NCBI RefSeq assembly: GCF_003122085.1
Contig: NZ_QEXV01000001.1
Location: 186,001-250,000, forward strand
Reading direction: 5' to 3'
Length of the DNA: 64,000 nt
Origin: Marinicauda salina
GTDB taxonomy: Bacteria; Pseudomonadota; Alphaproteobacteria; Caulobacterales; Maricaulaceae
Program-made: the position numbers and the translations under genes
The notes under the pieces: model-generated
What the model was told of the DNA's origin: nothing
The model's input: only the letters and a program-made list of their open reading frames with translations
Database searches by the model: none
Shown: one piece after another, positions 27,783 to 61,940 of the stretch
Layout: the number at the start of each line of letters is the position of its first letter
Position numbering within the stretch: the stretch's first letter is position 1

Positions 27783-29129
27783 TCAATCGACCGGGGCGAT
27801 CCGCGCGCCCAGCGCGCCCATGTCGTCGAAGAAGCCGGGATAGCTGGTCGCGATCATCGCCACGTCGTCCGCGATGACGGGCTCCTGCGCGCCCAGCCCC
27901 ATGACCAGGCCGGCCATGGCCAGGCGATGGTCCTGATGCGTCTCCACCCGGCCGCCGCCGGGCACGCCCTCCGGGCCGCGGCCGTGGACGATCAGCCCGT
28001 CGTCGAGCAGCTCGACGGCGACGCCGTTCGCGCGCAGGAGCGCCGCCGTTCCGGCGAGCCGGTCGCTCTCCTTGGCGCGCAGCTCGGCCAGCCCGGTCAT
28101 GCGCGTCGTTCCCTCGGCGAAGGCCGCCAGCACAGCCAGGATCGGGTATTCGTCGATCATCGCCGGCGCGCGCCCGGGCGGGACGTCGACGCCGCGCAGC
28201 GCGCCGAAGCGCACGGCGAGATCGGCCGTCGCCTCGCCCGACCGCGCCTCCGCCGGCGTCAGCGCGATATCGGCGCCCATCTCGCGCAGCGTCTCGAACA
28301 GGCCGACGCGTGCGGGATTGGTCATCACGCCGCGCACGGCGATGTCCGAGCCTGGCGAGATCAGCGCCGCGGCGACGGGAAACGCCGCCGAGGAGGGATC
28401 GCCCGGGACCGCGATGTCGACCGGCGTCAGCGGCCGGTCGCCGCGCACGCGCGCGACGAGGCTTTCGCCGGCGCGCTCCACGTCCAGATCGGCGCCGAAC
28501 AGGCGGGCCATCGTTTCGGTGTGGTCGCGCGTCGCCCGCGGCTCGCGCACGATCGTCTCGCCCTGCGCGCCCAGGCCTGCAAGCAGGACGGCGCTCTTGA
28601 CCTGGGCCGAGGCGACGGGCGGCGTGTAGTCGATCCCGCGCAGCGCCGCCGAGCCGTGCAGCGTCGCCGGCAGGCGGTCGCCGTCTACGGCCTCGAAGCG
28701 CGCGCCCATGCGCGTCAGCGGCTCGATCACGCGACCCATCGGCCGCCGCGACAGGCTGGCGTCGCCGGTGAAGGTCGCCGTCATGTCGAAACGCGCCGCC
28801 GCGCCCATCAGCAGGCGGACGCCGGTGCCCGAATTGCCGAGATCGAGCCGCGCGTCCGGGCTCATCCAGCGCCCGGGGCCGATCACGCGCCAGTCCGCGT
28901 TCGATCTCTCGACCTGCGCGCCGAGCGCCCCTACCGCCCTGGCCGTCGCCATGACGTCGGCGCTTTCGAGCAGGTTCGCGATCCGGCTCTCGCCGGCGGC
29001 GAGCCCGGCGAGGATCAGCGCGCGGTGCGAGATCGACTTGTCGGGCGAGGCTTCGACGGTCCCGGTCAACGGACCGGAAGCCGCGGCGGCGCAAGCCCCG
29101 GCGGGCGGTTTCATCGGCGTCTTCTGCAT
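27783..29129 (-). CDS. aroA: 3-phosphoshikimate 1-carboxyvinyltransferase (EPSP synthase)
   Basis: AroA joins PEP and shikimate 3-phosphate. The 448-residue protein has 'SPDKSISHRALILAGLA', 'LDLGNSGTGVRLLMG', 'FTGDASLSRRPMGRVIEPL', 'ASAQVKSAVLLAGL' and 'LRAKESDRLAGTAALL'. The GDASLxxRPM and ASAQVKSAVLLAGL blocks resemble the class II (CP4-like) enzymes; the PEP-loop glycine (NSGTG) is kept, whereas CP4 has alanine. Start is ATG 29129, with ATG 29114 possible. It is divergent from the TIGR02300 gene, a common alphaproteobacterial arrangement. Confidence 0.95.
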   Translation of the reverse strand: MQKTPMKPPAGACAAAASGPLTGTVEASPDKSISHRALILAGLAAGESRIANLLESADVMATARAVGALGAQVERSNADWRVIGPGRWMSPDARLDLGNSGTGVRLLMGAAARFDMTATFTGDASLSRRPMGRVIEPLTRMGARFEAVDGDRLPATLHGSAALRGIDYTPPVASAQVKSAVLLAGLGAQGETIVREPRATRDHTETMARLFGADLDVERAGESLVARVRGDRPLTPVDIAVPGDPSSAAFPVAAALISPGSDIAVRGVMTNPARVGLFETLREMGADIALTPAEARSGEATADLAVRFGALRGVDVPPGRAPAMIDEYPILAVLAAFAEGTTRMTGLAELRAKESDRLAGTAALLRANGVAVELLDDGLIVHGRGPEGVPGGGRVETHQDHRLAMAGLVMGLGAQEPVIADDVAMIATSYPGFFDDMGALGARIAPVD

Positions 29130-51509: not shown

Positions 51510-53084
51510 ATGGTTCCGCTCGAAGCGGTGGGACGACAAGCCGGAGAACCAGAGCCTGCTTCGAGGGGCGTCCGCGCGCCGCGGACGGCCGCGGTGCTCG
51601 TCGCGCTTCTGGCCGCGATCGGCCTGGCCGGGTGCGATTTCGGCGACGGCGGGGTCGTCGACCGGGTCTACGAGGCCTGCCTGTACGACGAGGAAGATCT
51701 CTACGAATCCGAGGATTGCCGGTGCTTCGCCGATCGCGTGAGCCGGCAGCTCGCCCCGACGGACATGTACGCCTACGCCGACATGGCCGATCGCGGTTTC
51801 TATCGCGATGCGGAGCGCCTGCGCTCGCGCTTCGGCGAGCAGACCCTGACCGATATCGAAAACATCGCCGAACGCTGCGGGCTGTGTCCTCCCGGCTCGA
51901 GCCAGGACACGAACGGAGACTGTACGTCCGACGACCCCTCCCATACCCTCCCGCAGCCCGACGCCAACCCGTTCCCGGCGCAGCCCTGGCCGTTCCGGGT
52001 CCGCCAGATCGAGCCGGAGGAGATCTGCATCGAGCGTCGGCTCTACCGCACGCAGTGCATGACCCGCGAGGCCGCCGCGCGGCTCTACAATGACGGCGCG
52101 CGCTACTGGTTGCTGCGCGGCGATGCGATGCTGTCGACGGTCGATCTCGACCGCGTCTTCCCGCCCTACCAGCTCGAGGCGACGCAGGAGCGCGGCGCTT
52201 CGGGGCTCACCGCCGAATACTATCCCGATCGGGCCTATGCGCTTCGCGACGCGATGGCCTTCTGGAACCACTCGATCCAGTGGGGCCGCCCGTTCGGCGC
52301 GCAGTCCGCCCTGATGGCGCAGCGTCGCCTGCAGGCGCACATGGTTCAGTGCGAGTCGTCGCAGACGAGCCTGTCGCGGATCTCCCGGCGCGCTCCGGGC
52401 GCGGTCGGGGACGTCATCAGCCTCGAGCTGCGCCAGCAGGCGCTCGCCGCCCTCGGCTACTACGCCGACAATGTCGACGGCGCCTACGGCCCGGCGACGC
52501 GGTCCGCCGCGCGCGGCTTCCAGCGCGAACTCGGCTATGACGAGACCGGCTCGCTGTCGCCGCGCCAGGTCACGCTTCTGATCTGCCACGCCGCCCAGAC
52601 CGCCCGCGATCCGCACATGCAGAACGCGCTCGGCATCATGTACGCCACCGGCCTGGGCGTGGCGCAGAACACCGACCTGTCGCTGGAGTGGTTCGAGACC
52701 GCGGCCCGGCGCGACGACGCCGACGCCTATTTCAATCTCGCGCTCATCTACGGCACGGGCGCCGTCCTGGGCAGCTACCGCATGTGCGGGATCATCGAGA
52801 ACCCCGAGCGCGCCGACGCCTATCTGCGCGACGCCGCCCGGCTCGGCCATCCCGTCGCGCAACGCTGGCGGCGGCATCCGGAATTCCAGAACCATCGCAA
52901 CGCAGACAGCCGGTGGGTCGCCATCGAGAACCGCCTGGAGGAAGCCGCCCACGAACGCGGCGGCGACTACTATCTCGAATGGCGCACCTGGTTCGATTTC
53001 TCGCGGATAGACGCCGCATCGCCGTCCTGTCTCGATCCCGAAGGAGGAGGCGTCGATGCCCCGCCCTATCCCCCGCAGGACTGA
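51510..53084 (+). CDS. Lipoprotein with peptidoglycan-binding and Sel1-like repeats
   Basis: The 524-residue protein has a long signal region with a lipobox (AIGLAGC-DFG). It has a Cys-rich N-domain (about 45-190), a middle segment, a peptidoglycan-binding domain (about 305-350, 'LRQQALAALGYYADNVDGAYGPATRSAARGFQRELGY') and Sel1/TPR-like repeats (about 365-445, 'QNALGIMYATGLGVAQNTDLSLEWFETAARRDDADAYFNLALIYGTG'). It likely sits in the envelope and binds cell wall while holding partners by Sel1 repeats. The ATG has a strong GGAGAGGGGGG site. It is followed by another lipoprotein. Confidence 0.82.
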   Translation: MVPLEAVGRQAGEPEPASRGVRAPRTAAVLVALLAAIGLAGCDFGDGGVVDRVYEACLYDEEDLYESEDCRCFADRVSRQLAPTDMYAYADMADRGFYRDAERLRSRFGEQTLTDIENIAERCGLCPPGSSQDTNGDCTSDDPSHTLPQPDANPFPAQPWPFRVRQIEPEEICIERRLYRTQCMTREAAARLYNDGARYWLLRGDAMLSTVDLDRVFPPYQLEATQERGASGLTAEYYPDRAYALRDAMAFWNHSIQWGRPFGAQSALMAQRRLQAHMVQCESSQTSLSRISRRAPGAVGDVISLELRQQALAALGYYADNVDGAYGPATRSAARGFQRELGYDETGSLSPRQVTLLICHAAQTARDPHMQNALGIMYATGLGVAQNTDLSLEWFETAARRDDADAYFNLALIYGTGAVLGSYRMCGIIENPERADAYLRDAARLGHPVAQRWRRHPEFQNHRNADSRWVAIENRLEEAAHERGGDYYLEWRTWFDFSRIDAASPSCLDPEGGGVDAPPYPPQD

Positions 53085-53112
53085 CCTTCAACGCCTCGCC
53101 GGAGGTTCGATC

Positions 53113-53841
53113 ATGAAACGCGCCGCGCTTGTCGTCTCCATCATGCTCGCCGGCTGCTCGACGGGCGGCGGCGACATCCACGAGCACAATCTCAGACCGG
53201 GGATCGTGCCCTCCTCGGACTCGTTCTCGGTGGAGGCCGCCGAGCGGATCTGCTCGATCGACTCGCTCACCCAGGCGCGCAATGAGTGGCGCTCGGAGAT
53301 CCGCGACACGGACTGGGCGATCGACCCCCTCATCGGTCCCGACCAGAGCGAGACCGGCGAGACCAACGTGCAGGAGCACGATTTCGTCGCGCCGCGCCCC
53401 TACGGACGCCAGACCGAGACCGTCGAGCTGGTGCGGGCTTTCGAGACCGATCTCGACGCCGCCTACCGCTTTGCGCACTCCTCGTGCCAGGCCTACGCGG
53501 TGTGCATGCACCAGCGCGGCTACGAGGAGCAGCGCTGCTCGGAATCGCGCCTGCAGTGGACCGAGGCGCGCGCGGATTTCTACGATCTCTCGGAGCGCCT
53601 CGCCGACATCCGGCTGGCGATGGCCGAGAGCTGCCCCGAATGCCGGCTCGCCGACGTCGCGCCGCGTCGCCCCGGTCATCATGGCCGACCCGGTCGCCCC
53701 CCGCACCACCAGCCGGGCGGTCATCACGGCGGCGACGGGCGCTACACCGAATGCGACGGCGTGCTCGGCGACGTGTTCACCACCAGCGCCTGCGTGGAAC
53801 GCGGCGACTATCCGCCGCGGCCGCCCTGGCGCCGCGACTGA
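53113..53841 (+). CDS. Hypothetical cysteine-rich lipoprotein
   Basis: The 242-residue protein has a lipobox (IMLAGC-STG). Mature cysteines lie in 'RICSIDS', 'SSCQAYAVCMHQ', 'QRCSES', 'ESCPECRLAD', 'TECDGV' and 'SACVERG'. The segment 'RFAHSSCQAYAVCMHQRGYEEQRC' looks like a disulfide-rich helical pair, and a Pro/His/Gly-rich linker (RPGHHGRPGRPPHHQPGGHHG, read in parts) follows. It starts 28 bases after the Sel1 lipoprotein gene, so they are probably co-expressed. No family was recognised. Confidence 0.72.
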   Translation: MKRAALVVSIMLAGCSTGGGDIHEHNLRPGIVPSSDSFSVEAAERICSIDSLTQARNEWRSEIRDTDWAIDPLIGPDQSETGETNVQEHDFVAPRPYGRQTETVELVRAFETDLDAAYRFAHSSCQAYAVCMHQRGYEEQRCSESRLQWTEARADFYDLSERLADIRLAMAESCPECRLADVAPRRPGHHGRPGRPPHHQPGGHHGGDGRYTECDGVLGDVFTTSACVERGDYPPRPPWRRD

Positions 53842-55729: not shown

Positions 55730-55761
55730 AAGAAAAACCCCGCGCGAATACTCGCGCGGGG
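55730..55761 (-). terminator. Rho-independent terminator of the atp operon
   Basis: On the minus strand a perfect 10-bp stem CCCCGCGCGA / TCGCGCGGGG with a 4-base loop is followed by TTTTTCTTT. It ends the atpHAGDC transcript about 28 bases after the atpC stop. Confidence 0.88.
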
Positions 55762-55788
55762 CGACCCCCTGATCAATCAGGAATTGCT

Positions 55789-56193
55789 TCAGCCGTCCGC
55801 CAGCGCGGCGGTGAGCGCCTCGAACTTCCCGACGCGCTCCTCGGCGAGGCGACGCTCGTGCTCGTCCTCGGCGTCGGCGACGTCCTCGCGGGCGTTCTTG
55901 AGATCCTGGGCGACCTGGTCGCGATCGACGTCGGCCAGCTTCATCGCCTCCTCGGCGAGGATCGTCAGACCGGCCGGGGTGACCTCGGCGAATCCGCCGT
56001 GGATGAAGGTCTTCGTCACCTCGCCGCCGTCATGCACCGCGATCGCGCCCGACCGGATCGTGCTCATCAGCGGGGCGTGATCGGGCAGCACGCCGAAATC
56101 GCCGTCGCCGCCGGGCACCACGACCATGTCGACGGCGCCGGAGAAGACGCGCTCCTCGGGCGAGACGAGATCGAACTGAAGCTTCTCGGCCAT
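55789..56193 (-). CDS. atpC: ATP synthase F1 epsilon subunit
   Basis: The 134-residue protein has the N-terminal beta-barrel ('LQFDLVSPEERVFSGAVDMVVVPGGDGDFGVLPDHAPLMSTIRSG') and a C-terminal helical hairpin ('DVDRDQVAQDLKNAREDVADAEDEHERRLAEERVGKFEALTAAL'). It couples rotor torque and can inhibit the enzyme. It is the last gene of the operon; a repeat lies between it and atpD. Confidence 0.95.
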   Translation of the reverse strand: MAEKLQFDLVSPEERVFSGAVDMVVVPGGDGDFGVLPDHAPLMSTIRSGAIAVHDGGEVTKTFIHGGFAEVTPAGLTILAEEAMKLADVDRDQVAQDLKNAREDVADAEDEHERRLAEERVGKFEALTAALADG

Positions 56194-56338: not shown

Positions 56339-57835
<1,497 letters not shown>

Positions 57836-57844
57836 TCAGTCCGC

Positions 57845-58729
57845 CTAAACCGCCTCGGCGCCGGAGATGATCTCGATCAGCTCCTTCGTGATCTTGGCCT
57901 GGCGGCTGCGGTTGTATTCCAGATTCAGGTCGTCGATCAGTTCGCCCGCATTGCGCGTGGCGTTGTCCATCGCGGCCATGCGCGCGCCCATCTCGCCGGC
58001 GGAGTTCTCCAGCAGCGCAGACAGGATCACGGTGTCGACATAGCGCGGCAGAAGCACCGAGAGGATGCTTTCCTCGTCGGGCTCGTAATCATAGACCGCG
58101 CCCTTGAGATCGGGGCGCTCGACGCTCTCGTCGATCGCCTCCTTCGCCGGGATCAGCGTCTGCGTGCGCGGCTTCTGCGAGATCACCGAGACGAACTCGG
58201 AGCTGATCACCTGGCAGACGTCGAACTCGCCGGCGTCGAACAGGGTGCGGATCTTCTCGCCGATGCGCCCGGCGACCGAGCTGTCGAGGGACTTCACCTC
58301 CTTGAGCTCGATCGTCTCGATGATCTTGTCGCTGTGCAGGCGCTTGAGCTGGTCGTAGCCCTTCTTGCCGATGCACAGGATCTTGACGGTCTTGCCTTCA
58401 GTGATGAGCGCGGAGATGCGCTCGCGGGCGCGCCGGACGATATTCGTGTTGAAGCCGCCGCACAGGCCGCGATCGGCGGTGGCGACGACCAGCAGGTGGA
58501 CGTCGTCCGATCCGGTCCCGACCAGCAGGCGCGGCGCCTCGGGACCCGTGATCGCGTTGGAGAGATTGGCCATCACAGCGGCCATCTTCTCGGCGTAGGG
58601 ACGCGCGGCCTCGGCGGCGTCCTGCGCCTTGCGCAGCTTGGCCGCGGCGACCATCTGCATCGCCTTCGTGATCTTCTGGGTCGACTTGACCGAGTTGATC
58701 CGGTTTTTCAGCTCTTTGAGGCTGGCCAT
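57845..58729 (-). CDS. atpG: ATP synthase F1 gamma subunit
   Basis: The 294-residue central shaft begins '[34 protein letters not shown]' and ends '[44 protein letters not shown]', the two long helices of the coiled coil. Middle Rossmann-like domain is normal. Its start follows the small ORF at 58749-58895 by about 19 bases. Confidence 0.97.
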
Positions 58730-58748: not shown

Positions 58749-58895
58749 CTAGCCGAGGATGCGGGCGGCGGCTTCGCCGACCTGAACGCCCGTCACGAAG
58801 AGGAGGACGCCCGCGCCGATCGCGACGAGCGTCGCCAGCCCGGCGCGCTCGCGGCGATCGAGGCCGTCCATCCAGTTCGTGAACTCGCGCGTCAT
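58749..58895 (-). CDS. Small single-helix membrane ORF between atpA and atpG
   Basis: The 48-residue ORF starts [20 protein letters not shown], has one membrane helix (about 19-38, '[20 protein letters not shown]') and ends [16 protein letters not shown] site lies 6 bases before ATG 58895. An in-frame ATG two codons earlier (58901) touches that site and is a poorer start. It fits the atpA-atpG gap almost exactly, with about 19 bases on each side, as a normal operon member. I know no named F1 operon member of this type; a role in ATP synthase assembly, anchoring or regulation is a guess from context. Confidence 0.72.
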
Positions 58896-58914
58896 CGACA
58901 TTCCTTCCGATCGC

Positions 58915-61012
<2,098 letters not shown>

Positions 61013-61208
61013 CGTTCCAGGCCGCTTTCTTCTCGTGATGTGCGCTGCGGGTCCGCTGTGAGCCGCGGAGCAAGCGCTTGAAATTCCGTGACTTTCTGCA
61101 CGCAGGCGCACAGACCTTACCGGTCGCCCCGCACAGTCCGGCGCTCACCTAGCACAGGGGTATCGGGGCGGCAACCCGCCCCGCTCCGACGTTGCATGCC
61201 GCGGGGCG

Positions 61209-61940
<732 letters not shown>

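Follow-up and report, generated by a model that had tools for sequence, protein, structure and literature searches.

CydX, CydY and CydZ are clade-limited, sequence-plastic proteins made of one helix, feature a conserved Trp residue at the helix start, and are encoded in the cytochrome bd operon (PMC4325964). KdpF and DltX also lie in the operon of their own complex (PMC10903887 and general knowledge). Proteins of the KdpF, AcrZ and DltX type are one-helix partners of larger membrane machines. Additions to FoF1 are described as well, such as AtpTheta of cyanobacteria, a small regulator outside the core set (PMC9241938). In mitochondrial ATP synthase, subunits e and g feature single-pass, GxxxG-bearing helices and help hold dimers together. 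Small membrane proteins of atp operons include AtpI (PF09527) and, in N-ATPases, AtpQ and AtpR, and an extra gene, "gene X", reportedly resides in the F1 operon of Rhodobacter (Rhodopseudomonas) blastica. The atpHAGDC genes, the products of which are soluble, are, as a set, among the least variable in Alphaproteobacteria.

In the window, the 64,000-nucleotide stretch of Marinicauda salina DNA analyzed here, a 48-codon ORF with a predicted membrane helix resides between atpA and atpG. The product resembles CydX, CydY and CydZ in the single helix, the conserved Trp, the low number of fixed residues, the clade-limited distribution and the location in the operon of an energy complex, but the operon is that of F1 ATP synthase rather than of cytochrome bd, and interaction with the complex is here suggested by gene position. 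The Trp residue (W8) is invariant in the seven known copies and precedes the long predicted helix by six residues, so that the match to the CydX-like kind is approximate on this point. KdpF, AcrZ and DltX-type proteins are comparable as one-helix partners, but have other sequences and belong to other complexes. AtpI differs in being encoded by its own gene on another contig (G000:C3:553978) and in lacking sequence match; AtpQ and AtpR are set beside the ORF by description only. Subunits e and g are eukaryotic and do not match in sequence, the likeness being limited to a short motif found in many helices. AtpTheta and the alphaproteobacterial zeta are similarly small FoF1 add-ons outside the core set, but act as inhibitors and have their genes outside the F1 operon, and zeta is separately present here.

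The ORF between atpA and atpG

The window carries a complete minus-strand F1 operon, in the order atpH, atpA, atpG, atpD, atpC, ended by a terminator-like hairpin (Table 1); no terminator-like site was found on the operon strand within the operon. A gap of 185 bases separates the stop of atpA from the start of atpG, and one operon-strand ORF lies inside, at 19 nt from either neighbour. Direct reading confirmed the original prediction of a 48-codon ORF preceded by GGAAGGA and flanked by 19 bases on each side. The one clear membrane helix was found as described, a 19-residue stretch having a mean hydropathy of 2.19 in the window protein and of 2.3 to 2.7 in homologues. A second ATG (58901) directly abuts GGAAGGA; homologues start at the downstream ATG, which gives the 48-aa form. 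In the window, RNA at the borders of the ORF folds no better than shuffled sequences do. The GC3 of the ORF tracks that of the flanking genes in each host genome, being 0.938 versus 0.946/0.922 in the window, and 0.458 versus 0.564/0.558 in G313, a carrier from another family of the same order.

Table 1. Features of the F1 operon region, numbered from the first base of the window
Feature	Coordinates	Strand	Basis
48-aa single-pass membrane protein gene (finding)	58749..58895	-	conservation, hydropathy, GC3, predicted model
GGAAGGA, Shine-Dalgarno-like, six bases 5' of the ATG at 58895	58902..58908	-	read directly
Start codon of the 48-aa form, in agreement with homologue starts	58893..58895	-	sequence, homologues
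Alternative ATG, 50 aa product	58899..58901	-	sequence
Codons for residues 19-37, the 19-residue stretch of highest hydropathy, forming the core of the predicted membrane helix	58785..58841	-	
atpA (F1 alpha), upstream neighbour of the ORF	58915..60447	-	
atpG (F1 gamma), downstream neighbour of the ORF, ATG at 58729	57845..58729	-	
atpD (F1 beta)	56339..57781	-	translation read
atpC (F1 epsilon)	55789..56193	-	translation read
atpH (F1 delta), first operon gene; true start within the listed ORF	60452..61111	-	translation read
Terminator-like hairpin 3' of atpC, 11 pairs, T-rich tail	55737..55762	-	

The product may be viewed as a putative bitopic inner-membrane protein of 46–48 residues having the N-terminus inside, an orientation suggested by the charged residues which precede the helix and the few which follow it. 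The AlphaFold model, obtained from an alignment of three sequences, features a helix at residues 2–10, a break, and a helix at residues 14–47 (mean pLDDT 92), helix-break-helix being a common and easily predicted shape. Residues 2–10 would form a short amphipathic helix on the cytoplasmic side, W8 and L12 lying at the membrane interface, followed by the break, the charged E16-R17 pair and one long helix predicted to cross the membrane, on which G36xxxG40 would provide a helix-packing face. A PDB fold search gave no match with E under 6, as expected for a single helix.

Homologues, constraint and distribution

Six homologues of the 48-aa ORF have been identified in whole-genome searches, five in Maricaulaceae and one (G313) in the other family. 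Inspection of the atpA-atpG gaps of 90 genomes (the window and 89 relatives having atpA and atpG on one stretch) revealed homologous ORFs in G014, G029, G013 and G028. The profile of the first homologues then found G147 and, at E 1.3e-9, G313, the copy of which was not contained in that profile; Maricaulaceae copies score E 1e-16 to 1e-27 per genome. Named carriers of a homologue are Marinicauda pacifica and Oceanicaulis sp. HLUCCA04. All seven copies, on the same strand as the operon, reside between atpA and atpG, a location in keeping with the CydX-like kind, 19–49 nt after the former and 12–29 nt before the latter. The gap search thus revealed a conserved ORF which keeps its place, and the description of an ordinary operon gene proved apt: conservation across homologues shows that 58749..58895 truly encodes a protein as part of the F1 operon.

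Products measure 46–48 aa in all copies, and the stop falls right after the helix. Nine residues are invariant in the alignment of seven (M1, W8, L12, E16, L23, V30, L31, G36, G40), and R17 and Q38 differ solely in G313. Common to all copies are the hydrophobic helix and the G36-x-x-x-G40 motif. In the two closest pairs, amino-acid changes are fewer than expected when the same base changes are redistributed randomly over the sequence: 10 versus 14.8 in G028/G013 (p 0.009; dN/dS 0.22), 22 versus 27.5 in G014/G029 (p 0.012; dN/dS 0.44). dS between copies ranges from about 0.4 to saturation. In a sample of seven sequences of about 48 residues, codon-level comparison thus indicates that the ORF is under protein-level constraint, at p about 0.01 in each close pair.

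No fitting family was found in Pfam, NCBIfam, PHROGs or PDB. In Pfam scans, no member matched CydX (PF08173) or the families of mitochondrial subunits e and g up to E 10, and no match was found to AtpI or to the CydY and CydZ models. No mention of a gene between atpA and atpG was found in the literature with the terms tried. By these searches, the 48-aa protein is a family without any database entry; at 48 residues, such a new family may easily be overlooked by annotation pipelines.

All seven members match T2SSM (PF04612) weakly in Pfam, with a best E of 7.5e-4; the window protein scores 13 bits (E 0.12), far below the gathering cut-off of 27.8 bits. Comparison to GspM by hhalign gave 92.5% and a score of 33.9 over 31 columns, reached by 0 of 200 column shuffles. 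The score was about unchanged when the membrane part alone was shuffled, which identifies the signal as the tail motif W...L...ER. This likeness, the sole recurrent one, is confined to the N-terminal tail, about residues 1–18, and ends in the membrane helix. The tail is of the GspM kind, in which W is followed by [RK]-E-[RQ] at fixed spacing and by the membrane helix. In contrast, GspM is the product of a separate gene, has about 110 more residues (about 160 in all), and lacks the GxQxG helix end. Identity as GspM was rejected because of the sub-cut-off score, the length of 46–48 aa, the stop right after the helix and the missing periplasmic domain. Genomes studied have an ordinary, separate gspM; a recent offshoot of the host gspM was also rejected, since GspM tails from some other genomes are, by eye, more similar than the hosts' own. 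The tail likeness can be due to common descent from the start of a GspM, or to a shared membrane-entry motif.

The ORF is found in 6 of 137 Maricaulaceae genomes, window included. Carriers span four genera: the window's, the Marinicauda genus (g15, 2/2 genomes), the Oceanicaulis genus (g14, 2/5) and genus g5 (1/6). In the AtpG tree they fall within one clade of 14 genomes from four genera, interspersed with non-carriers. The closest relatives by AtpA (G033, G010, G058, G048, G043, G040) have no ORF and plain gaps of 29–61 nt. This patchiness, with most sister genomes lacking the gene, means that the protein is not a core subunit. By count, one gain plus about five losses and four gains at one site would explain the pattern about equally well. 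Next to the ORF stop, G147 has the bases AATTGACACGAGCGGCACGGAAATC, which can still be made out in the ORF-less sisters G033 (TTTGACACCAGCGGCACGGACCC) and G043 (ATTGACCCCAGCGGCGCGGAAATC), and the matching 3' flank, read by eye, suggests that the ORF was lost in both. In these two gaps (L005 in G033, L009 in G043; 57–61 nt) a G+C-rich hairpin, GCCGGCGG...CCGCCGGC, directly precedes the bases matching the G147 flank.

In whole-genome searches of 137 family, 398 order and 385 class genomes, no convincing copy came to light at any other place in the genome. No confident match was seen outside the order in the 385 class-wide genomes, and no second convincing copy in 105 genomes of the G313 family. 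Relocated copies were likewise not found by profile search, an approach which may miss strongly diverged copies; 158 gaps were also read directly. In the AtpG tree G313 groups with its own family (support 87/53 at the closest node, 100/100 for the family group), and on this ground acquisition of a complete F1 operon by this genome was rejected. The ORF therefore did not arrive with a foreign F1, and would be either very old or have moved independently.

In other Alphaproteobacteria the median atpA-atpG gap is near 30 bases. Gaps larger than 90 bases are 3 of 68 class-wide, and none of the 68, these three included, hosts a membrane-helix ORF. Unrelated genes were observed in five gaps of the same order, L018 (G004), L065 (G082), L070 (G098), L071 (G078) and L073 (G092); they correspond to short lipoprotein-like ORFs with cysteine motifs and to a methyltransferase-like ORF. 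The lipoprotein-like ORFs of L018 and L071 have no detectable relationship. The occurrence of unrelated genes suggests that the gap takes insertions repeatedly. Gaps L049 (G074) and L054 (G062), which measure 187 and 257 bases, contain by eye an apparent dispersed palindromic-type repeat instead of a gene.

Candidate role and alternative explanations

The position of the gene suggests that it may encode a lineage-specific, dispensable, CydX-like single-pass accessory of FoF1, made together with F1, our leading reading, though one for and against which we hold the case to be evenly balanced; the nearest described parallel is that of CydX, CydY and CydZ with cytochrome bd. Ribosomes on the atpHAGDC message would reach the ORF straight after alpha and ahead of gamma, and the peptide would consequently enter the membrane while F1 is made. 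Its GxxxG face would pack against Fo helices or against itself, and the effect might be to stabilise the complex, to ease F1-Fo joining, or to pair complexes. A role on ATP synthase is favoured because the protein would be made with F1 and the gene is never found elsewhere; as close relatives lack it, the protein must be an optional add-on. The link to the enzyme is one that we infer from position. The original prediction had proposed an assembly, anchoring or regulatory factor. A conserved, selected membrane gene of the F1 operon is what was found, but a generally required subunit of any such type is at odds with its absence in the closest AtpA relatives.

Several observations count against this role. 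Presence is patchy between sisters, a position can be inherited without shared function, GxxxG is common in membrane helices, and the gap takes elsewhere unrelated genes which need not serve the enzyme. AtpI and zeta were found in all 20 genomes tested, with or without the ORF; no compensating change is thus seen, and replacement of either protein by the ORF product was rejected. That the product is a supernumerary FoF1 subunit translated from the F1 message, packing via GxxxG and controlling assembly or pairing, as an independent counterpart of the mitochondrial one-helix subunits, is unlikely. A conserved one-helix gene within this operon, gained or lost between sister genera, would offer a natural experiment on ATP synthase additions and losses.

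The chief rival sees in the ORF a selected membrane protein which uses the strong, constant F1 message and works elsewhere, for instance in a secretion or transport complex. It is kept alive by the lipoprotein and methyltransferase-like genes found in the same gap of other genomes, and the 18-residue N-terminal tail, similar to the cytoplasmic tail of GspM (type II secretion), is in line with it. However, it gives no reason for the identical place in two families, or for the gene never appearing elsewhere, and the GspM likeness stems solely from the tail motif, in genomes having a separate gspM; we regard it as possible, though doubtful. Alternatively, translation of the small ORF may serve as a spacer which sets ribosome flow from atpA to atpG and thereby adjusts the proportion of alpha to gamma, in which case the peptide would be of little importance. 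The short distances to both neighbours and the ribosome-binding-like site would suit a spacer, as would the two sisters (L005, L009) having a 57–61 nt gap and a strong hairpin instead, as if expression were controlled. Yet amino acids are conserved beyond a mere open frame, and most genomes manage with a gap of 12–45 nt, which makes this reading quite improbable.

Patchy presence and tail likeness to GspM could also denote a decaying insertion or gene fragment, for example the first part of a copied gspM, by now selectively neutral. Length, start, stop and fixed residues are, however, kept across genera in which synonymous sites have strongly diverged, GC3 is matched to the hosts, and constraint was detected in two independent pairs, so that decay is very improbable. 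Open frames are common in DNA of 72% G+C, and in the window an antisense 116-codon frame overlaps the ORF; still, seven syntenic copies, that of G313 having 50% G+C, reject a chance ORF, the probability of which is close to nil.

Minor observations concern neighbouring and functionally related genes. Two adjacent zeta (PF07345) matches are found in G010 (C1:27481-27786 and 27984-28280), and a second, weak zeta match adjoins the first in G313 (C15:423930 and 423502). In the window, a TerC-like multi-pass membrane protein, identified by eye, is encoded just upstream of the F1 operon (61209..61940, minus strand). Two adjacent plus-strand genes (51510..53084 and 53056..53841) encode predicted lipoproteins with several cysteines each, and the product of the former features, by eye, apparent SEL1-like and peptidoglycan-binding-like stretches.
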